Source of the DNA: Deltaproteobacteria bacterium | Lineage (GTDB): Bacteria; Myxococcota_A; Polyangia; Polyangiales; JADJMO01 | Reading direction: 5' to 3' | Assembly: GCA_022843175.1 (NCBI GenBank) | Contig: JALHOE010000001.1 | Location: 1-64,000 of the forward strand | DNA: 64,000 nucleotides | Position numbers and translations under genes: made by a program | Notes under the pieces: generated by a model | Databases searched by the model: none | What the model was told of the DNA's origin: nothing | Seen by the model: the letters and a program-made list of their open reading frames with translations, nothing else | In this document: in pieces, positions 11,608 to 22,211 of the stretch | Layout of the letters: every line of letters starts with the position of its first letter | Position numbering within the stretch: position 1 is the stretch's first letter

Positions 11608-11649
11608 CTATTCGGCTAACAGCGATGCCCCGGAGGGGTGATGCCTCAT
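11608..11649. repeat. Right terminal inverted repeat of the IS
   Basis: The reverse complement matches 10202-10243 at 37 of 42 positions. The transposase start (11571) lies 37 bp inside this end. Confidence 0.8.
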
Positions 11650-11757
11650 GAGACGCGCACCCGTTCGCCGCCCAGACGAAGGCGACTGCCCGTCGATTTG
11701 GCACCGAGGTGTCGTGGCGCGACTGCCCTCTCGTCGTTACAGAGTCGAGCACTCCGA

Positions 11758-12555
11758 ATGGCACGTCACCCGCTCGACATCGTCGATTCTAGGCTCGAGC
11801 GCGATGGGAGCGTCGAGAAGCCTCTGTATGAGACCGCGCCACCCTTGGCCGATCTCTTGGAGTTTGCGTCGATGCGGTGGGACTGGTTCGGAACCAGGCA
11901 TGAGGAGCTGCTCGCGCGTGTTCCGATCGGCACGTTTGACGAGAAGTGGCTGCCCGAAGCAGGGGCCGGAATCGAACTGCGCGTGCCCGATGATCGCACG
12001 CGTGGGGTGCACTCGGTCCCGCGCATGAGCGCCGCCGGTTGGGAGGCGGGATCCTCGTTCGGCTTCTTCCAGGAGCGGTTCAAAAAGGCCTTGGTGGTGG
12101 GAGGCCTCCCGTCCGGATTCGCGAGCGGCTTGGTCGGCTGTCTCGTCGAAATGGCGGCGAATGCAGCGGAGCACGCGCGGTCTCCCGCGCCCCCCATGGC
12201 CGCCTACGAGGTCACGTCGTCGCGCTGGCAGTTCTGCGTCTGCGACGTGGGGGTCGGCATGCAGGGATCGCTTACGCGGAACCCGATCTACGCGGGCCTG
12301 AGAAACGACGTGCAGGCGCTTCAGGCAGCCGTAAAGGACGGCGTCTCCGCGACCGGTGATCCAGGTCGCGGGAAGGGCTTCACTGATCTCTTCCACCGCC
12401 TCGTGAATCGCAGCTGCAGCATCCGTCTGAGATCCGTCGGGGCGACGACCTCGTGGAGCGGAACAGCGCCGGGCGCGAGCGAGATGCGCATCTCCCCGGC
12501 ACGCCGCCGGGCCGGGTTCCACATCACCGTCAGCGGTGCCTTGACCGCGTCCTAG
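11758..12555 (+). CDS. HATPase-type ATP-binding protein
   Basis: A GHKL-type ATPase of about 265 residues. The N box is CLVEMAANAAEHA, the G1 box is CVCDVGVGMQGSL (D-x-G-x-G) and the G2 box is GRGKGFTDLFHR. No dimerisation His or receiver domain is present, so this is not an ordinary sensor kinase. It is closer to the ATP-binding partners of STAS-like (DUF4325) proteins. The start is uncertain: ATG 11758 lies inside the frame, which is open back into the IS end at 11638, so the IS may have removed the original start or promoter. The gene is followed by an inverted repeat and the STAS-like gene. Confidence 0.75.
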   Translation: MARHPLDIVDSRLERDGSVEKPLYETAPPLADLLEFASMRWDWFGTRHEELLARVPIGTFDEKWLPEAGAGIELRVPDDRTRGVHSVPRMSAAGWEAGSSFGFFQERFKKALVVGGLPSGFASGLVGCLVEMAANAAEHARSPAPPMAAYEVTSSRWQFCVCDVGVGMQGSLTRNPIYAGLRNDVQALQAAVKDGVSATGDPGRGKGFTDLFHRLVNRSCSIRLRSVGATTSWSGTAPGASEMRISPARRRAGFHITVSGALTAS

Positions 12556-12557
12556 AG

Positions 12558-12583
12558 AATCGTCACCATAACGTGTGACGATT
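12558..12583. promoter_or_regulatory. Perfect 9-bp inverted repeat abutting the STAS-like start codon
   Basis: AATCGTCAC (12558-12566) and GTGACGATT (12575-12583) are exact inverted copies separated by CATAACGT. The ATG at 12584 follows at once. It could be an operator or a hairpin hiding the ribosome site; no Shine-Dalgarno sequence is visible otherwise. No T-run follows, so it is not an obvious terminator for the upstream gene. Confidence 0.55.
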
Positions 12584-13141
12584 ATGACGGACATGACGAA
12601 GCGAGTTTTCCTACGTGAGGTCACCGACCGGGCGAGCCTGGCCGGCAGGCCGGCGGCACTGCTCGATAGGCCCAAGATCGAGGAGGCGGCGCTCGCCAAA
12701 GCCTCCGACGGCGGCTGGGTGGTCGTCGACTTCGAGGGCATCGCGGTCATGACGGCGTCCTACTTCGACGCCGGACTCTGGCCGCTCTGGGGGGTGGTCC
12801 CGCGCGACCGCGGGCTCGACGCCCTCCACCCGGTCCTGGCCAACATCGGGCAGGACGTCATCGACGACGTGGCGATCGGGCTCCGTGAGCACGGTGGTGC
12901 GGCTTGGGTCCTGACCGGGGACGCCCCGAGGCTGATTGGCAAGGTCGACGACGGAACGCGGAGGTTGCTGGCGGCGTTGGAGCAGCGCGAGCCCGCGACC
13001 GCGGCGGATCTTGAGGGTCTCGATTCGATCGTCCGGACCGCGTGGAGCAATCGACTCGCGGCTCTGTATGACCAGCGCCTCGTACGCCGTCAGAAGGACG
13101 GCAAGCGTCTCCTCTATTCCGTCTCGTGGAGGTCCTTCTGA
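12584..13141 (+). CDS. STAS-like domain protein (DUF4325)
   Basis: A 185-residue protein. The first half matches the STAS-like DUF4325 fold, with GWVVVDFEGIAVMTASYFDAGL, a hydrophobic strand and then the conserved S-Y-F around a helix. The second half looks like a small winged helix (DSIVRTAWSNRLAALYDQRLVRRQKDGKRLLYS). DUF4325 proteins often pair with GHKL ATPases, as here, by analogy with anti-sigma/anti-anti-sigma partner switching. ATG 12584 lies directly after the inverted repeat; an in-frame GTG at 12575 would place the start inside it. The stop overlaps the next ATG (TGATG). Confidence 0.75.
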   Translation: MTDMTKRVFLREVTDRASLAGRPAALLDRPKIEEAALAKASDGGWVVVDFEGIAVMTASYFDAGLWPLWGVVPRDRGLDALHPVLANIGQDVIDDVAIGLREHGGAAWVLTGDAPRLIGKVDDGTRRLLAALEQREPATAADLEGLDSIVRTAWSNRLAALYDQRLVRRQKDGKRLLYSVSWRSF

Positions 13142-13518
13142 TGGGCGAGAATTTCCTCAAGCGGCGCAACAGGCGCTTCTTCCAACAGCGAGACCGCAAC
13201 TTCGAGGCCCAAACGGCACGGGATCTTTTCTCGGTGTGCGCGCCCGAGACCGTCGTCGAGGTCCAAGCTCAGCGCGTGGCCGACCACGGGCAAGGCAACG
13301 CCGAGGTTCGGAAGGGCGACGAGGTGTGGTGCTCGGTCGGCGCCGACGGCGGCGAGATCACGTTCTACGGCGTCGGCGCGTCGCCGATCGCATTCGTCGA
13401 CGGAGCCGCCGCCGACCACCTCCGCGAGGCGCACTGCGATGAACAGATCGTCGGACGTATCGAGGACTTAGACGCGGACGACGTGACCATCCGTCTGGGG
13501 GTGAACCGTGAGCAGTAA
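13141..13518 (+). CDS. Hypothetical protein of the HATPase/STAS cluster
   Basis: A 125-residue protein that starts in a one-base overlap with the STAS-like stop and overlaps the next gene by 11 bp. The N-terminus is basic (MGENFLKRRNRRFFQQRDRNF). The remainder alternates short strands with acidic loops (VWCSVGADGGEITFYGVG, VGRIEDLDADDVTIRLGV). I recognise no family. Its place between overlapping genes says it works with the cluster. Confidence 0.6.
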   Translation: MGENFLKRRNRRFFQQRDRNFEAQTARDLFSVCAPETVVEVQAQRVADHGQGNAEVRKGDEVWCSVGADGGEITFYGVGASPIAFVDGAAADHLREAHCDEQIVGRIEDLDADDVTIRLGVNREQ

Positions 13519-14617
13519 GAAGGGAGGCGGCGCTCTCCGCCTGGACCTACTCCGCCTCGACGGCGAGGTCGTCAGCATGGGCTGCACCTCGTGCCCACTG
13601 CTCGCCGCGTGTGGCGGGCTCACCGCGCGCGGCGGCGGATGGAACTGCCTGGAGGCGTGCAAGGGCTGCGACCGTGCGACGTGCGACGTCGTATGCATGT
13701 CGAAGCCGACGTTCGGCCGCCGCCTGCTAGAGGTCCGCAACGATCTCGGCGCCAAGCACGTTGGGAGTCTGCAAGGGCCGCCGTCGGGTGAGATGCCGAA
13801 GTACGTTCCGGTGCTCCAGTACGCGCTGCCGAGCGACGCGCGGCTCCCCGTCGGGCCCATCGCGATCCCTCTCGCGTCGCTGATGCGATTCGACCGCCGA
13901 CGCGGCAGCTATGGACCGATCGCACGCACGCCCGATGAACTGCGTCAGCGGTTCGGTGTGACCCCCAACACGCCGGTCTTCATCCTGGGCACGGGACAGG
14001 ACGCGCCCATCGAGCGGTACTGGCACCTCCGGCGCGAGGGTGCGGCCGATGCGCTCTCGAAGCTGAACGTCACCGTGATCGCGCCCAACTACTCCGTCTT
14101 CCTCGACGACCCGCGTACGCAGCACCTCTACAACCGCAGGCGCTCGCTGATGTGCGCCGAGGAGCTCGGTGCTCGCGGTGTTCGCGTGATCCCGTACCTC
14201 CACGGGATCACGGGCTCCGACTACGCCTTCTGGGCGGACTTCCTCCGCGAGCACGAGGAGATCACGACGATGGCGAAGGAGTTCCAGACCGGAGCGCTCA
14301 CGAACGAGATCGCCGAACAAGTGCTGAACCGAATGAAGATGATCGAGGACCGCGTCGGGCGACGGATTCATCTCGTCGCGATCGGTGCGCACCGCCTCGC
14401 CAAGCGGATCGCCGCGCGATTCGATCACTGGACCGTGATGGACTCGTCCGCGTTCATGAAGGCGGTTCATCGCCGCATCGCGATTCGCCACGGAACCAAC
14501 ATCGAATGGGAGTTCGTTCGCGACGAGGACGTTGCGGACCTCTTCTTCAACAACATCCGCCGCGTCCGCGACGGACTGGATCTCGTCGCCGCGGAGACGC
14601 CCTCGCGAGCGAGGTAG
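13508..14617 (+). CDS. Cys-rich protein of unknown function, DUF4417-like in its second half
   Basis: A 369-residue protein starting at GTG 13508. A dense cysteine cluster occupies residues ~24-63 (GCTSCPLLAACGG, then NCLEACKGCDRATCDVVCMSKP), enough for one or two metal centres. The rest resembles a TIM-barrel-type alpha/beta domain: VTVIAPNYSVFLDDP, GVRVIPYLHGITGSDYAFW, AKEFQTG and LHLVAIGAHRLAKR. The middle recalls DUF4417 proteins, but the match is by eye and weak. The spacing CxxC...C...CxxC...C is not the CxxxCxxC of radical-SAM enzymes. It overlaps the previous gene by 11 bp and precedes the broken PIN gene by 22 bp. Confidence 0.6.
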   Translation: MSSKKGGGALRLDLLRLDGEVVSMGCTSCPLLAACGGLTARGGGWNCLEACKGCDRATCDVVCMSKPTFGRRLLEVRNDLGAKHVGSLQGPPSGEMPKYVPVLQYALPSDARLPVGPIAIPLASLMRFDRRRGSYGPIARTPDELRQRFGVTPNTPVFILGTGQDAPIERYWHLRREGAADALSKLNVTVIAPNYSVFLDDPRTQHLYNRRRSLMCAEELGARGVRVIPYLHGITGSDYAFWADFLREHEEITTMAKEFQTGALTNEIAEQVLNRMKMIEDRVGRRIHLVAIGAHRLAKRIAARFDHWTVMDSSAFMKAVHRRIAIRHGTNIEWEFVRDEDVADLFFNNIRRVRDGLDLVAAETPSRAR

Positions 14618-14639
14618 GCGACGCGGCGCTGACTGCGCG

Positions 14640-15731
14640 GTGTACGGAGCCTCCTTGGAAGAGAAACCGAAACACAGCGGGCTCGTTCTCGGCGCGCCGC
14701 TCACCGAACGCATCGACCCCGAGGTGGTCTACCGCGAGCGAATCGGCGACCGAGCGATCGTCTACCTCGATCACAACGCGTGGATCGAGCTGCGCGACGT
14801 ACGCACGCAGGTCGCGACGACCGCGGTAAAGCTGGCGCGCAACGCGGCTGCCGCAGGCCGCGCAGTCTTCCCGTGCTCGTAGGCGTCGATCAGCGAGCTG
14901 CTCCACGTCCCCGCCGCTGCGGATCGTGAGAAGCACGCGGACCTGATGGATCAACTCTCGAACGGCGTGTCCGTCCGCCAGCGCGCGTGGATGTTCGAGG
15001 AGGAAGGGCACGCGCTCTACCGGAACATCATCGGCGGCGAGGTCGCTCCACCTTCGCGGAGCCGCATCTTCACCCGGATCGTCGACTACTTCGGCCACGG
15101 CGTGCTGACCTTCCCGGCCGGTAGCCCGATCGAGGCCGTGCCGATGCTGACGAAGGTGCTCGAAGCGACGACCGTCCGGTGGTTGGTCGACCATCTCGAC
15201 GTCGACGAGATGGCGGCGAGGCATCGCGACAGCGACTACACGGCGAAGATGAACGCGCAACACGATGCCCGTTGGGCCGCAGCCGGGGAGAGGAAGCTCG
15301 AACGTGCCGCGGTCGTCACGACCGAGCGCGCGTTCCTCTTCAACGACTACGAACAACCGGCGATGGGACGCGCGATGCTGGCCGGGATCGGTCCGGTCGA
15401 GTTCATGCGTCGCAGCACGGAGTATCGCCAGAAGCACGGGGAGGGCAGTCCAAAGCGGCTCGGACAATGGTTCCGGCGACTCGCGCCCGCGCTTGAGATC
15501 TCTGCGCAGGTCTTCGCCGGACGGCAGATGCAGCGCGCCCGGCGAACCTCCCAGCAGGACTTCTGGGACATCGAGCACGCGGCCACGGGGTATGCCTACG
15601 CCGACGCGTTCGTCACGCTCGACGGCGGGCTCGCGGCCCTGCTCTGTCGGCCGTGGATCCCGCCGTCGGCGAAGGCGCGGCTCGTGACGACCATCGAAGG
15701 ACTCGTCGAACTGCTTCGCCGGTACGCCTGA
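14640..15731 (+). pseudogene. PIN-like ribonuclease with an in-frame TAG
   Basis: One continuous frame is interrupted only by TAG at 14880-14882. Before it: VYLDHNAWIELRD, with the first catalytic Asp typical of PIN domains. After it, the same frame continues as ASISELLHVP (the PIN S-x-x-x-E-L motif). Hundreds of residues follow, then DIEHAATGYAYADAFVTLDGGLAALL (later acidic residues). FPCS-stop-ASISELL sits exactly where PIN proteins read P-x-S-x-x-S-I-x-E-L, so one base change explains the break. The translated pieces are 80 and about 280 residues. The start is a GTG (14640) or TTG (14655). It may be a dead toxin of the cluster. Confidence 0.7.
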
Positions 15732-15972: not shown

Positions 15973-16704
15973 CTAGGAGTCGCGATTGCGCGAGCCGCCC
16001 GGAAGCGTCAGCTGCTCCTTGATCGATTTCGGGCCGCGCTTCTTCGGAGCGCGCGGTTTCATCTTCGTCGGCGCTCCATCGACTTCGATCTCATTGAGAG
16101 TGAGCGCGGAAGCCGCGATCTCGGCGCGCTGGCACGCCGAGAAGACCACGAGTTCGATTGGCCGATGAAGCCTGGCTAGAAACTCCACGAGGAGCTCGCG
16201 GTCGGCGCCGAAGTGACGTGCATCGCGTCCAAGCAGGAGGACGGTGCCCATGAGGAGCAGGTCAGCGATGCGGCGGATGGCATCGGTCGCATTCTCCTCC
16301 AGGTGCTGACGGTACTTTCGTTGCGACAGATGCTGGTTGAGCGAAGAGGATGAGTATGTGTTCGCTAGATCCTGGCAGCGAAAGTAAGTGACGCCCAGCT
16401 CACGAAATGTTCGCTCGACGATGTCCGGAGCGAAGCCTCGTCCGCGGAAGGATGCGAGCAATCGCACGTCGACGACGTGACGCACGCCAGCAGAAGCGAG
16501 CACGTGATGGAAGCCGTAGAAGTCGAGAACATCAAACCCCACGCTCAGCAGCCGCCCTGGCGCTCCACCATCTCGCCAGCCCGCGAGGTGAAGCTGCTCC
16601 TCGCGCGCAAGCGCGCGCGGTACCGAAAGAAGCTCGCCACGCGCGCTGGTGCGCGCCTGGCCACCACCGGAAATAACGTGCAGGCGCGGGCGCTTCTCGA
16701 TCAC
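15973..16704 (-). CDS. DUF488 family protein coupled to an AvcD-like deaminase
   Basis: A 243-residue protein with the DUF488 layout: LLSVGFDVLDFYGFHHVLASAG, GVRHVVDVRLLASFRGRGF, LGVTYFRCQDLANTY, YRQHLEENATDAIRRIADLL, then VLLLGRDAR. The usual C-E-...-C-H-R signature near the end is replaced by GRDARHFGADRELL, so the typical site is missing. The tail is very basic (KMKPRAPKKRGPKSIKEQL). The ATG at 16704 overlaps the deaminase stop (ATGA, 16701-16704), so both proteins come from one transcript. DUF488 proteins have no settled biochemical role; coupling suggests a part in the same defence or nucleotide process. Confidence 0.7.
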   Translation of the reverse strand: MIEKRPRLHVISGGGQARTSARGELLSVPRALAREEQLHLAGWRDGGAPGRLLSVGFDVLDFYGFHHVLASAGVRHVVDVRLLASFRGRGFAPDIVERTFRELGVTYFRCQDLANTYSSSSLNQHLSQRKYRQHLEENATDAIRRIADLLLMGTVLLLGRDARHFGADRELLVEFLARLHRPIELVVFSACQRAEIAASALTLNEIEVDGAPTKMKPRAPKKRGPKSIKEQLTLPGGSRNRDS

Positions 16705-18287
16705 TTTCCCACCGCCGTGATTTGTTCGACGTGGTTGGCGATGGCCTGTTCGAAGTCGAGGTGTGACTTGGTGAAGATCGGGTCCGTGTGGAGCGCATCC
16801 GCCGGGTCGCGGAGAGACAGCCGCCCGTCGCGCTTCAGCTCGTCACGCTTCTCGAAGAGAGCTGCATATCTGCGAGGCGCGACGCCTGTGAAGAGTCGAA
16901 AATGCACGCGCCTCGCCTCCGCGGAGGGCGCCCTCGTGGCCTCGACGATCGCGTCATCGTGGAGTGCGACCGCCCTACTTTTCACGTATGGCTCGATGTA
17001 GACGACGTCGCGGATGCCGGCGGCGACGATGAGGCGCGCGCAGCTGTGGCACGGGTAGGTCGTGCAGTACAAGGTCCCGCCTTGAGTCGAGGGACCGCCC
17101 GAGCGCGCGAGGCTCACGATGGCGTCGGTTTCCGCGTGAACCGCACGCGAGAACTCGATCAAATCGTTCACCGGCGTCAGCCGCAGCGCCCCGATGATGT
17201 CACCATCCGCTACTGAATCTCTGATCACGTTGGCTTCGCGGAGTTGCTCCACGGCCTGCTTCAGAATGTCCTTCTTCACCTTGTCGTTGCGACAAAATCC
17301 CTTCGGCTCATTCTCCTCGATCTTGGGGTATCTGAAGCACCGGTGGTCTTCGCCGGCGCCGGCTTCGTCCTCCTCGTAGAGGCCGCCTCCGAAACGCGGA
17401 ACATCGTTGGTACCGCTGGCGATCAACTGGCCGGACGGATCGAGGATCGCGGCGCCAACCTGCCGCGACATGCAGGAGGACCGGAGCGCTGCACTCCATG
17501 CCGCGAACATCCCGCGTTCGTCGCGAGTCGGGCGAACGACCTCGCTCGCGAAAACCACCTCGAGGAAACGCGCGAGTGCCTGATCGACAGGGCCGGTGCC
17601 TTCCGCCTTGGGAGAGATCTCGTTGTTGACGAAGAAGTCTCCGAGGTGGAGTGTCTTGCGCACTTGCTGCCCGAAGAGAGCCTCTTGCGCCTCGTCGCGT
17701 TCCATCACGACAGAGACCTTGTCCCGATCGTTCTTGTACTTGACGAGCAGACGAGACTTTCGCGTCGAGGGCCCGCAGACAACGCTCACAAGGTAGAACG
17801 ATCGACCGTAGACCTTGCGCAGGGCGTAGACTTCTTCTGGGTTCTTGAGGCTGTCGAGAAGGAACGCGACGGGCTTTGCGCCGACCGAGCGCTTCTGCCG
17901 TTCTTCATGCATCCGACGCACGGCGAGCGCCGCAGTGAACGTCCGGCCGTACTTCTCCCGGAGCCAATTGCCTGCCTCTTGAAGCAGCAAGGTTCGCTCG
18001 CCCGAAGGCGGGGTCATCGTGGCGAGCGCGCCGAACCGCTCGGAGTCCGCGCCTCGCGCTGCCACCGCGATCAAATCGCTGACGGCAACCATGGTCGGCT
18101 CGTAGTTGTGCGACTTCAAACCATCGGCGAGCAAGCGCGCGACCCATCCCGGCCCCGCGCCCACCTGACCGACGACTGCGAAGACAAGGTCGTGCGATGT
18201 TGCCTTGCCGAGCGTGTCATTGACCCCGTCCGCGTTGGTCGAGTTTGCGGCGGGCGCGAGCGGGAGGTGTCGAGCGGCATTCGACAT
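16701..18287 (-). CDS. AvcD/DCD-like anti-phage deoxycytidylate deaminase
   Basis: A 528-residue protein. The N-terminal ~200 residues form a kinase-like P-loop fold with a degenerate loop (VFAVVGQVGAGPGWVARLL). The C-terminal half is a zinc-dependent deoxycytidylate deaminase: SCMSRQVGAAILD, the HAE active site in AVHAETDAIVSLAR near residue 384, and the zinc pair in TTYPCHSCARLIVAAGI near 410. An inserted Cys/His segment (EDHRCFRYPKIEENEPKGFC) matches this group. The architecture is that of AvcD/DCD proteins, which deplete dCTP or dCMP during phage infection. ATG 18287 is preferred; the frame extends upstream to 18434 without family resemblance. A DUF488 gene overlaps its stop. Confidence 0.85.
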   Translation of the reverse strand: MSNAARHLPLAPAANSTNADGVNDTLGKATSHDLVFAVVGQVGAGPGWVARLLADGLKSHNYEPTMVAVSDLIAVAARGADSERFGALATMTPPSGERTLLLQEAGNWLREKYGRTFTAALAVRRMHEERQKRSVGAKPVAFLLDSLKNPEEVYALRKVYGRSFYLVSVVCGPSTRKSRLLVKYKNDRDKVSVVMERDEAQEALFGQQVRKTLHLGDFFVNNEISPKAEGTGPVDQALARFLEVVFASEVVRPTRDERGMFAAWSAALRSSCMSRQVGAAILDPSGQLIASGTNDVPRFGGGLYEEDEAGAGEDHRCFRYPKIEENEPKGFCRNDKVKKDILKQAVEQLREANVIRDSVADGDIIGALRLTPVNDLIEFSRAVHAETDAIVSLARSGGPSTQGGTLYCTTYPCHSCARLIVAAGIRDVVYIEPYVKSRAVALHDDAIVEATRAPSAEARRVHFRLFTGVAPRRYAALFEKRDELKRDGRLSLRDPADALHTDPIFTKSHLDFEQAIANHVEQITAVGK

Positions 18288-18787: not shown

Positions 18788-19993
18788 GTGCCGAGCGCTG
18801 CTCCGCCGGACGGGTACGTCGACGCGTTCGAGAAGCGAGGGTTCACCCTCGGCGACGTGATCGGCGGCGGCCTCTCCGGAACCGTCTACAAGGCGCGCCA
18901 GCGAAGCCTGGAGCGCGACGTCGCCATCAAGATCTTCGACAACCCGGCGAGCCTTCGCGACGATCGACTGCGCAAGCGGTTCAAGCACGAGGCGCTGCTG
19001 CTCGCACGGATGCAGCATCCCTCTCTCCCGGTGGTCCTCACGCACGGCGAGATCGCTGGTCTGCATGACGCGCCGCTGCTGTACACGGTCCTCGAGTTCA
19101 TCAATGGGTCCACGCTCGACGCAGAGATCAAGAACCGCGGCCGGCTCGATGCGGCCGTCGCGGCGCGCACGATCCTTCACGTCCTCTCCGCGCTCTCCTG
19201 CGCACACGCCCAGAGCGTCGTTCATCGTGACGTGAAGCCGTCGAACATCATCGTGCAGGACGGCGGACACGCCTACCTGATCGACTTCTCGATCGGCGTG
19301 AGCCTCGAGAAGATCTCTGGGCTGACGCGCGTGACCGGCGATAACAACCAGCCCGGGACGTATGACTACATGGCGCCCGAGCAGTTGGCGGGACATGATG
19401 TCGATCACCGCGCCGACATCTACTCGGCCGGGTTGGTGCTGTTCGAGATGCTGAGCGGTCAGAACCGGCTGCGTCATCAGTCGATCCACACCGATCTCCG
19501 TGACGTGACGATCGGAGTTCGGCAGGCAATCGAGCGCGCGTGCCAGCCCAAGCGCGAGGACAGATTCGAGACCGCCGAGGCATTCCGGCGCGCACTTGCG
19601 CGTTTCGAGAACGCTCCCGCGTCGACTTCCAAAAACGCCGTCGCGATCTGTCGCAACCTGAAGTGCCCGCAAGCAGAGTGGACCGAGCGCGGGTACTACG
19701 AAGGCCCGCGCATCATCAAGGAGACGCAGGACTCGTTCTGCGATGGCTGTGGCGGCCAGCTCGTCTACCCGTGCGACCGGTGTGGCGCTCCGTTCAAGGA
19801 CACGCGCTTTTGCGGGAGCTGCGGCGCGCCACATTACGAGGTTCCCGAGTGCAAGCAGTGCGGCTCGTGGCTGCAAAGCGAGGAGATGGATGCCGACACC
19901 GCGGCGAACGGCTGCACGAAGTGTCGCTCGAAGCGCGCGGTGGCGGCAGCGCCGTCGTTCGGAGCGCCCGGCGACGACGACATCCCGTTCTGA
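18788..19993 (+). CDS. Serine/threonine protein kinase with C-terminal zinc ribbons
   Basis: A 401-residue soluble kinase starting at GTG 18788. Glycine loop GGGLSGTVYKARQ, catalytic Lys in DVAIKIF, HRDVKPSNIIV (active HRD), then IDFSIG where kinases usually have DFG, followed by MAPEQ and DIYSAGLVLFE. After residue ~290 come paired-Cys zinc knuckles (CRNLKCPQ, FCDGCGGQ, PCDRCGAPF, FCGSCGAPH, ECKQCGSW, CTKCRSK). No membrane segment is seen, so it acts in the cytoplasm. Being next to defence genes and inside the repeat-bounded element, it may take part in defence signalling; that is inference. Confidence 0.85.
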   Translation: MPSAAPPDGYVDAFEKRGFTLGDVIGGGLSGTVYKARQRSLERDVAIKIFDNPASLRDDRLRKRFKHEALLLARMQHPSLPVVLTHGEIAGLHDAPLLYTVLEFINGSTLDAEIKNRGRLDAAVAARTILHVLSALSCAHAQSVVHRDVKPSNIIVQDGGHAYLIDFSIGVSLEKISGLTRVTGDNNQPGTYDYMAPEQLAGHDVDHRADIYSAGLVLFEMLSGQNRLRHQSIHTDLRDVTIGVRQAIERACQPKREDRFETAEAFRRALARFENAPASTSKNAVAICRNLKCPQAEWTERGYYEGPRIIKETQDSFCDGCGGQLVYPCDRCGAPFKDTRFCGSCGAPHYEVPECKQCGSWLQSEEMDADTAANGCTKCRSKRAVAAAPSFGAPGDDDIPF

Positions 19994-20804: not shown

Positions 20805-22211
20805 TCAGACGATCATGCGAACGCCGTACTCCTTGAAGAGGCGCTGGAAGAACGCGCGAACGATGTGACGCGGACGCTCCTGCCCATCCGGCCGGGCCGG
20901 ATCTGCCCTCAGCTCGTCGGCGCCGAAGCGGAAGACCTCGTAGCCCGAGAGCTTGAGGTCGCGATCTGCGGCGACCATCCTGGCGTACCTCTCGGTTTCG
21001 GCCCGCATCTGCGCGTCGGCGTAGTGCTGAGCGCCGTCGACTTCGATCACGACGCGCGCGCCACCCTTCAGCAGCATCAGAAAATCCATTCGCTGCCGGG
21101 TCAGCGCGTCGAACCCACGCTCCTGGACCGTCCGTTGGTCGTAGTGCAACCAGACCTCGGGTAGCAGCGCAGGAACCAGCTCGAGGACATCGCGATGCAT
21201 GGCGTGGTACTCGCGGAACAAGAGCCGCTGCCCAGGAGAGCCGGGCGGCAGGCTCTCCGACAGCCGCCTGTACAGCGACCGCGCCGCCGTGCCCCGATCG
21301 CCGATTCGCGATGACTCGCACCACCAGTCGAGGAGATCCTTCCAACCGAGGCCGTCGACGCCGATCGGACGGTCGTAGACCAGGACCTCGTCCTCGTGCT
21401 TGAGGATGCGGATGTCCATCGTGATCGCGTCCTGTAGAACGATGTCGGGCTTGTTCTTCGACGCGAAGATCACGTACTTCGGCTTCCCCGCAAGTGCGCC
21501 CCCCTTCCTGACCAGCGCGTACATGGGGTAGCCGCCATCGTCGCCGCTATGTCGGAGCTCGATGCCATATCTGCCGAGGAGCTCGTTTGCGACCCCGACG
21601 GCCTTCATTTGGGACGCGGCGTCGGGCCGCACGCGCGGGTTCAGCAGAGCCTCGAGAAGCAGGGCAAACCGCCGATCGGAGAGATCTTCGTGCTTCAATT
21701 CGTTGAAGAACAGCTCCCATTGCCAGTCGGCGTTGCGGAACATGTGCTGCACGATCTTGGGCCGCAGACCAAACCATTCCCCGGCCACCGTGTGCGTGGG
21801 CGCCAGGAATCCAAGGCGTTCGAGGGCATCGAGCAGCGCCCCGTCGCGCTCGAACACGCTGACTTCGTGATCGTCGAGGTGCCGAACGAGCTCGTTTCGC
21901 ACGCGTCGCGGGATCTTGATCGCTGCTGGATCGTCCTCCCACAATGCCTCCTCGAGCACGAAGGCGACGTCGAGGAACATCGCCGGGTACTTCCGCCTGA
22001 CGACCTCGATGAACCGAGCGGCGAGCACGCCGACCTTGGCGTCGTCGATCCGTGCGCACCGAGCAGCTAGCTCCTGCCGTTTGACCGGCACCTCGCCGGC
22101 GGGGTGGTCGACGGTCGGAACGCCGACTTCGTCGAGCACCTCCGTGAACTTCGCCAGGGAGAGCTGACCGAGCGACTCGATCGCCGAGACGAGATGCGTC
22201 CGCGTGATCAT
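20805..22211 (-). CDS. AbiJ-like protein with C-terminal PD-(D/E)XK-type nuclease domain
   Basis: A 468-residue protein. The N-terminal part is helical (HLVSAIESLGQLSLAKFTEVL, later KIPRRVRNELVRHLDDHEV). The C-terminal ~120 residues hold a Vsr/DUF559-like nuclease core: RQRMDFLMLL, then RVVIEVDGAQHYADAQMRAE, then LSGYEVFRFGADEL, which gives the D...E-x-D pattern of PD-(D/E)XK enzymes. Such N-terminal helical plus C-terminal nuclease proteins are annotated as AbiJ-related abortive-infection proteins. It is the first gene of element B, and its start lies 114 bp from a divergent HNH gene. Confidence 0.6.
   Translation of the reverse strand: MITRTHLVSAIESLGQLSLAKFTEVLDEVGVPTVDHPAGEVPVKRQELAARCARIDDAKVGVLAARFIEVVRRKYPAMFLDVAFVLEEALWEDDPAAIKIPRRVRNELVRHLDDHEVSVFERDGALLDALERLGFLAPTHTVAGEWFGLRPKIVQHMFRNADWQWELFFNELKHEDLSDRRFALLLEALLNPRVRPDAASQMKAVGVANELLGRYGIELRHSGDDGGYPMYALVRKGGALAGKPKYVIFASKNKPDIVLQDAITMDIRILKHEDEVLVYDRPIGVDGLGWKDLLDWWCESSRIGDRGTAARSLYRRLSESLPPGSPGQRLLFREYHAMHRDVLELVPALLPEVWLHYDQRTVQERGFDALTRQRMDFLMLLKGGARVVIEVDGAQHYADAQMRAETERYARMVAADRDLKLSGYEVFRFGADELRADPARPDGQERPRHIVRAFFQRLFKEYGVRMIV

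Follow-up and report, generated by a model that had tools for sequence, protein, structure and literature searches.

One clade of AvcD anti-phage deaminases is accompanied by a DUF488-type protein with a clamp-like motif

INTRODUCTION

Proteins of the AvcD family act as effectors that deaminate dCTP and dCMP, so that DNA synthesis is starved. This type of nucleotide-depletion defence is widespread; its control is known for a few RNA-regulated members only. In the AvcID systems of Vibrio and ETEC, the AvcD deaminase is combined with the AvcI RNA in a type III-like toxin–antitoxin system (PMC10511110).

The window analysed here, a 64,000-nt stretch of contig JALHOE010000001.1 from a Myxococcota genome, contains an avcD gene followed immediately by a gene of the DUF488 family. 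Is the DUF488 protein a component of the AvcD system and, if so, which role may it have? A preliminary description made from the sequence had suggested a variant of AvcD with a second protein component.

RESULTS AND DISCUSSION

The avcD gene and the overlapping DUF488 gene

The avcD gene (16701-18287, minus strand, ATG at 18287) encodes an anti-phage dCTP/dCMP deaminase of 528 aa. The protein passes the curated cut-off of the model NF041025, ‘anti-phage dCTP deaminase’ (435 bits; cut-off 400), and matches PADLOC dCTPase (1.7e-147). Both models, to which the DCD systems belong, describe a single protein, and in this respect the locus differs from them. In an alignment, the protein is ∼46–50% identical to four Myxococcota homologues. 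The cytidine/deoxycytidylate deaminase zinc-binding domain (PF00383, 60 bits) takes up aa 255-431 (16995-17525, minus strand) and includes the catalytic HAE motif, aa 384-386 (17130-17138, minus strand), as well as the zinc-binding PCHSC of the PCxxC type, aa 412-416 (17040-17054, minus strand). Both motifs, with residues H384, E386, C413 and C416, are invariant in a five-sequence alignment of the clade. Judged by sequence, the protein is an AvcD-family anti-phage dCTP deaminase; given the two model matches and the presence of HAE and PCxxC, its earlier naming as AvcD-like holds. The deaminase itself is of a kind already known, and the form with a DUF488 partner appears to be the new part.

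The partner gene (15973-16704, minus strand) starts with GTG and encodes a DUF488-type protein of 243 aa, assigned by PF04343 and by alignment of the partner family. As the preliminary description had it, the deaminase stop overlaps the DUF488 start: the two codons share 4 nt in GTGA (16701-16704, minus strand), an arrangement of translational coupling that can be read directly in the sequence. Across phyla, an overlap with the avcD stop is the rule (30 of 36 partner genes), at −4 in 11 genes and at −8 in 10.

The partner core is homologous to canonical DUF488 proteins; PF04343 matches aa 66-176 with 41.1 bits, above the gathering score of 22.2, and the protein is the sole DUF488 match within its 9.75-Mb genome. 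This core (16177-16509, minus strand), an alpha/beta fold according to PF04343 and AlphaFold2, is nevertheless degenerate. Canonical DUF488 proteins fetched from other genomes terminate in CLLCYERDHTHCHRQMIAE (C-x-x-C-Y-E-R...C-H-R), whereas the window partner has VLLLGRDARHFGADRELLVEFL at the corresponding position. The lack of the usual end motif, already claimed for the window protein, extends to the whole partner family alignment, in which C...CHR is missing. Pfam matches partners at E < 0.01 in only 7 of 35 cases, and an NCBIfam search with the window partner gave no convincing model match. AlphaFold2, run with 35 partner sequences, predicts the core with pLDDT ∼90 over aa 51-160 and disordered tails, the N-terminal one with pLDDT < 50. 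The partner core may thus be pictured as an alpha/beta domain of DUF488 descent from which C...CHR was lost.

Three core residues are near-invariant among the 35 partners: D79 (in 32), R81 (in 35) and Y107 (in 34). A Foldseek search of the partner model against PDB had no match below 1e-3; weak resemblances were to dual-specificity and DUF442 phosphatases, and we do not claim a fold family on such weak similarity. Could the DUF488 protein be a second enzyme of nucleotide metabolism, e.g. phosphatase- or rhodanese-like and acting on dUMP or dUTP, that makes dCTP depletion irreversible? The nearest folds, though weak, would suit this idea, and D79, R81 and Y107 could make a ligand site. On the other hand, the canonical Cys, Glu and CHR of DUF488 are missing across the partner family, the Pfam ‘inactive’ DUF488 subclade is matched, weakly, by one partner, and the best-conserved part outside the core is of a docking-like rather than catalytic kind (see below). 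We find a second enzyme quite improbable and take the partner to be probably non-catalytic.

Distribution of the partner gene

Ten AvcDs above the cut-off were found among 379 Myxococcota genomes; for the four nearest to the AvcD of the window (46–49% identity), the next gene downstream is in each case a DUF488 homologue, which is missing there for those that are more distant. When 84,980 species genomes were scanned with the clade alignment, 80 AvcD loci were obtained. Since these rank as the best matches to the clade of the window, the share of DUF488 among them is biased upward. These loci were pooled with samples of plasmids, E. coli and Pseudomonadota, giving 121 loci with some duplicates and 109 distinct rows in the AvcD tree. 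In this tree, built by a quick method without bootstrap, loci with a DUF488 partner make up exactly one clade (38 of 38 inside, 0 outside). The clade has SH-aLRT 98, and one change accounts for the presence of the partner, as compared with 31.5 changes in shuffles. According to the record titles, its members come from Myxococcota, Alpha-, Beta- and Gammaproteobacteria, Magnetococcales, Acidobacteria and Nitrospira.

Searches in the reverse direction, with a profile of the partner, led to the same pairs. Matches were found in 5 of the 379 Myxococcota genomes, exactly those with an AvcD of the clade, and five strong matches in 398 Pseudomonadota genomes all adjoin avcD; thus, 10 of 10 strong matches in the 777 sampled genomes are neighbours of avcD. 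Among the remaining matches, those inspected are canonical DUF488 proteins with CHR, from which the partner differs by its occurrence only beside avcD in the sampled genomes. A tblastn search of plasmids and phages with the window partner found none, and no relative was found in IMG/VR with either the window partner or the AvcD alignment as query; divergent members of the partner family adjoin avcD on plasmids (L118 and L142).

The trivial explanation would be chance adjacency within a defence island, other defence-like genes being nearby. Against it, adjacency, gene order and mostly the overlap are kept in 38 AvcD loci of several phyla, the DUF488 gene tracks the AvcD tree, and the strong partner matches all adjoin avcD; an artefact of this kind can be considered ruled out for practical purposes. 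Because of the frequent overlaps across phyla and the exact agreement with the AvcD tree, the pairing is beyond chance, and we hold the DUF488 protein to be, very probably, a dedicated functional partner of AvcD. The survey of AvcD loci for coupled DUF488 genes, a check proposed at the outset, places the adjacency in a whole AvcD clade rather than in this genome alone. The suggested second protein component is supported at the genome level, with a partner present throughout the clade and none found without AvcD.

Several loci deserve separate mention. In one genome (G474, contig C120; locus L175), a second copy of the partner lies directly behind a diverged avcD that is cut by the contig end and has 67% identity to the AvcD of L061. 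The avcD genes of L009, L012, L066 and G353:C137 are apparently decayed copies, with stop codons or frameshifts that split or interrupt them. A 751-aa ORF in L085 resembles an AvcD-DUF488 fusion; it is a frame shadow and was rejected.

A clamp-like motif in the partner tail

The best-kept short motif of the partner family is a near-invariant QxxL in the N-terminal tail. Despite the predicted disorder of this tail, Q37 is present in 33 of 35 partners, and so is L40 (33 of 35). Typical versions are QLSLF, QLDLF, QLTLF, QLELF, QLSLPF and QLALPF. Of 36 partner tails, 19 contain the strict pattern QLxL[FP]; shuffled tails had it 0.24 times on average and at most four times in 2000 shuffles. The partner family departs from canonical DUF488 proteins twice, by the loss of C...CHR and by the gain of a disordered tail with QLxL[F/P].

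In the window partner, the family motif is represented by a degenerate copy in the N-terminal tail predicted to be disordered, QLHLAG (aa 37-42; 16579-16596, minus strand), recognized by the conservation of Q37 and L40 and by the motif statistics. It has no F or P in the fifth position and fails both motif patterns used. Only a second clamp-like motif, QLTLPG (aa 231-236; 15997-16014, minus strand), seen in the translation of the protein's own C-terminal tail, fits; AlphaFold2 predicts this region with low confidence and no secondary structure. Since its own copy is degenerate, the window protein is not the best family member for testing the clamp idea.

The published consensus for binding to the bacterial clamp is QL[S/D]LF or QxxLF; the peptide QLSLPL binds tightly (PMC12309361). 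The SocB toxin binds the DnaN sliding clamp via such a motif (PMC9690074). The match of the partner tail to this consensus predicts DnaN binding, and we lean towards the tail being a DnaN ligand; the QLxL motif could also bind AvcD itself instead. The likeness to SocAB lies in a toxin-type module with a motif of the clamp-binding type. The proteins are unrelated, however; in the present system it is the partner that carries the motif, and clamp binding is a prediction.

Another candidate, a C-terminal QxxLF of the AvcD proteins of L039, L051 and L063, was dropped as a clamp motif; in L063 it consists of the QLSL codons of an overlapping small ORF read in another frame.

Small ORFs and AvcI RNA in other AvcD clades

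Outside the DUF488 clade, AvcD loci mostly carry a same-strand ORF of 50–80 aa with a conserved C-terminus. A first profile was built from 17 examples. Because the seeds had been chosen by eye among the very loci under study, only held-out matches and controls are a real test of the small-ORF profiles. Profile 1 identified small ORFs next to avcD in 43 loci, and others were added by profile 2; 25 of all matches were not seeds. Profile 1 had 0 matches among 2440 more remote small ORFs and 0 among 460 antisense ones. A DUF488 partner and a small-ORF partner never occur together (0 of 42).

The downstream small ORFs have a clamp-like motif in 16 of 19 cases (QLSLPL, QLTLPL, QLSLDF; shuffled mean 1.6), the upstream ones in 6 of 36. 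As 30 of the 36 upstream small partners have no QLxL, clamp docking is not common to all AvcD systems. Upstream small ORFs mostly end in a conserved A..xLxW and are located where the AvcI RNA is described; the authors who discovered AvcI reportedly considered an ORF there. Examples at the AvcI site include L117:1225-1410, L043:4691-4852, L178-L180 and ∼30 further loci. An upstream small ORF is present in three of four further Vibrio loci. The small ORF of ETEC H10407 p58 (WP_000070788.1) has a clear ribosome-binding site and a different ending, and is below the profile threshold. For informative pairs of small ORFs, dN/dS was 0.11-0.39, with one value of 0.62 derived from few changes; such low values indicate selection on a protein.

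The preliminary description had set the DUF488 locus against AvcD systems with an RNA inhibitor. While the RNA is indeed described, the contrast is too simple, as loci of the RNA type, ETEC H10407 among them, carry a conserved small ORF. It is worth re-examining, given this ORF at the AvcI site, whether both a protein and an RNA are made from the locus. In experiments with spectinomycin, a block of translation left AvcI unaffected, and a block of transcription activated AvcD (PMC10511110); this result speaks against a role of the upstream small protein as a labile antitoxin.

An RNA of the AvcI type might still control AvcD in the window as well, with the DUF488 protein a minor accessory. Those AvcD systems for which our literature search found experimental work are regulated by RNA (PMC10511110), the window avcD is preceded by 500 nt of intergenic sequence, and the upstream regions of some loci are structured (e.g. 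L034, z = -4.6). Yet the mean folding z of upstream regions is an unremarkable -0.64 in the DUF488 clade, weaker than the -1.13 of the group with upstream small ORFs; an Rfam search, made without a dedicated AvcI model, had no match to an AvcI-like RNA; and the DUF488 partner is never lost within the clade. RNA control with a DUF488 protein of minor role seems to us improbable.

Downstream of distant AvcDs (L009, L010, L011 and L140; L007 and L008 are perhaps related), there is a small ORF of yet another, third type, marked by a W-rich ‘SWPxWK’-like motif; it is too thinly sampled for a claim. An AvcD with an upstream small ORF was also seen on 4.6-kb Klebsiella/E. coli plasmids and on a short scaffold deposited as bacteriophage (L137, L138, L149 and L148).

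Fusion of the partner to TIR-APAZ

The partner is fused to TIR-APAZ in four loci: L075 (Bradyrhizobium), L089 (Sphingomonas), L095 and L108. The fusion gene is downstream of avcD and encodes 634-663 aa (the open frames reach 703 aa) in the order DUF488-like part, TIR domain, TIR-APAZ region. The PADLOC model Aga_TIR-PNTD1-PNTD2 matched with values down to 4.5e-136 in the three loci scanned (L075, L095 and L108), and L089 was aligned with them. The next gene overlaps the fusion gene and encodes a class I short pAgo (∼1e-194 to 1e-207); this assignment was given by PADLOC, as Pfam had no match on these short Argonautes. The gene order is thus avcD - DUF488::TIR-APAZ - pAgo, and the four loci group together in the AvcD tree.

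The continuation of these partner loci into TIR-APAZ and then a class I short pAgo is what they share with SPARTA. They differ from TIR-APAZ genes elsewhere in Alphaproteobacteria, 6 of 7 of which match from the TIR domain onward only and have no DUF488 part. TIR-APAZ and short pAgo are no part of the avcD locus of the window and are confined to the four loci named. A literature search for SPARTA or TIR-APAZ joined to a dCTP deaminase found no paper. In this AvcD-SPARTA sub-clade, the fused DUF488 domain would connect AvcD with a sensor based on Argonaute.

A TIR-APAZ gene is also present on a contig catalogued as viral (L189, IMGVR_UViG_3300022743_000233); its match starts at the TIR domain, and no DUF488 part is seen.

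Possible role of the partner

The window locus shares the deaminase family and the catalytic motifs with AvcID, and the AvcD of ETEC H10407 is placed in the same tree. It differs in having avcD followed by an overlapping DUF488 gene rather than merely an RNA upstream, and in that its AvcD belongs to a separate clade with a DUF488 partner in every member. Our literature search, in which few subscription journals were covered, found neither the clade-defining DUF488 partner nor the clamp-like motif shared with small partners nor an AvcD-SPARTA operon.

The DUF488 protein is probably an obligate, and probably non-catalytic, regulatory or targeting subunit of AvcD. With moderate confidence, we favour a two-protein AvcD module in which it is the obligate partner subunit that docks AvcD to DnaN. 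The AvcD of the window would be the effector that deaminates dCTP or dCMP and starves DNA synthesis, and overlapping translation would probably yield AvcD and partner at matched levels. The folded DUF488 domain is presumed to bind AvcD, and the flexible tail, which carries an LxLV motif in addition to QLxL[F/P], is presumed to dock on the DnaN sliding clamp. AvcD would thereby be held in place, kept inactive or directed to the replication fork, and a phage that disturbs or takes over replication would unleash it. Whether the partner inhibits or holds AvcD, rather than purely targeting it, we consider an even call. Clamp docking, if true, would let AvcD sense or act at the replisome.

Alternatively, the DUF488 protein might be an antitoxin, a protein replacement of AvcI that inhibits AvcD directly; QLxL would then dock on AvcD, and the clamp would be irrelevant. 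The strict one-to-one co-occurrence, with no orphan AvcD or partner in the clade, and the overlap of the two genes agree with such a role, and the small ORFs or AvcI RNA of other AvcD clades are maybe equivalent to it. That every AvcD of the clade has a partner fits an antitoxin or an essential subunit alike. However, an antitoxin gene usually precedes its toxin gene, and here the partner gene is downstream of avcD, unlike the classical order; in many members, every letter of the motif agrees with the well-characterized clamp motif (QLSLF, QLDLF, QLSLPL); and the same QLxL motif recurs in otherwise unrelated small partners. We judge an antitoxin of this kind unlikely.

The docking-subunit reading can be extended, tentatively and with more doubt than trust, to AvcD systems in general. 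They would be two-protein modules with clade-specific partners (upstream small, downstream small and DUF488-like), two of these types would dock on the clamp, and one sub-clade would be wired to a SPARTA Argonaute sensor. If this were true, the upstream small partner would be encoded in or beside the AvcI region. The combination of a clade-defining partner, a clamp-type motif and an occasional Argonaute-linked TIR fusion offers a testable route for the sensing of phage replication.

Genes around the window locus

Four co-directional genes at 11638-15731 (plus strand) converge on the DUF488 gene. Their products are a weak match to HATPase (DrmA-like), a protein with a winged-helix-like end, a weak match to DUF4417 and a weak PIN-like match. 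On the other side, a gene for a Ser/Thr kinase with a zinc-ribbon tail (18788-19993, plus strand) is divergent from avcD and is PD-T4-6-like by PADLOC (2e-63). Further on, the gene at 20805-22211 (minus strand) encodes an abortive-infection-like protein, which has AbiJ N-terminal domain 3 (2e-32) and whose C-terminus resembles a DUF559 nuclease.
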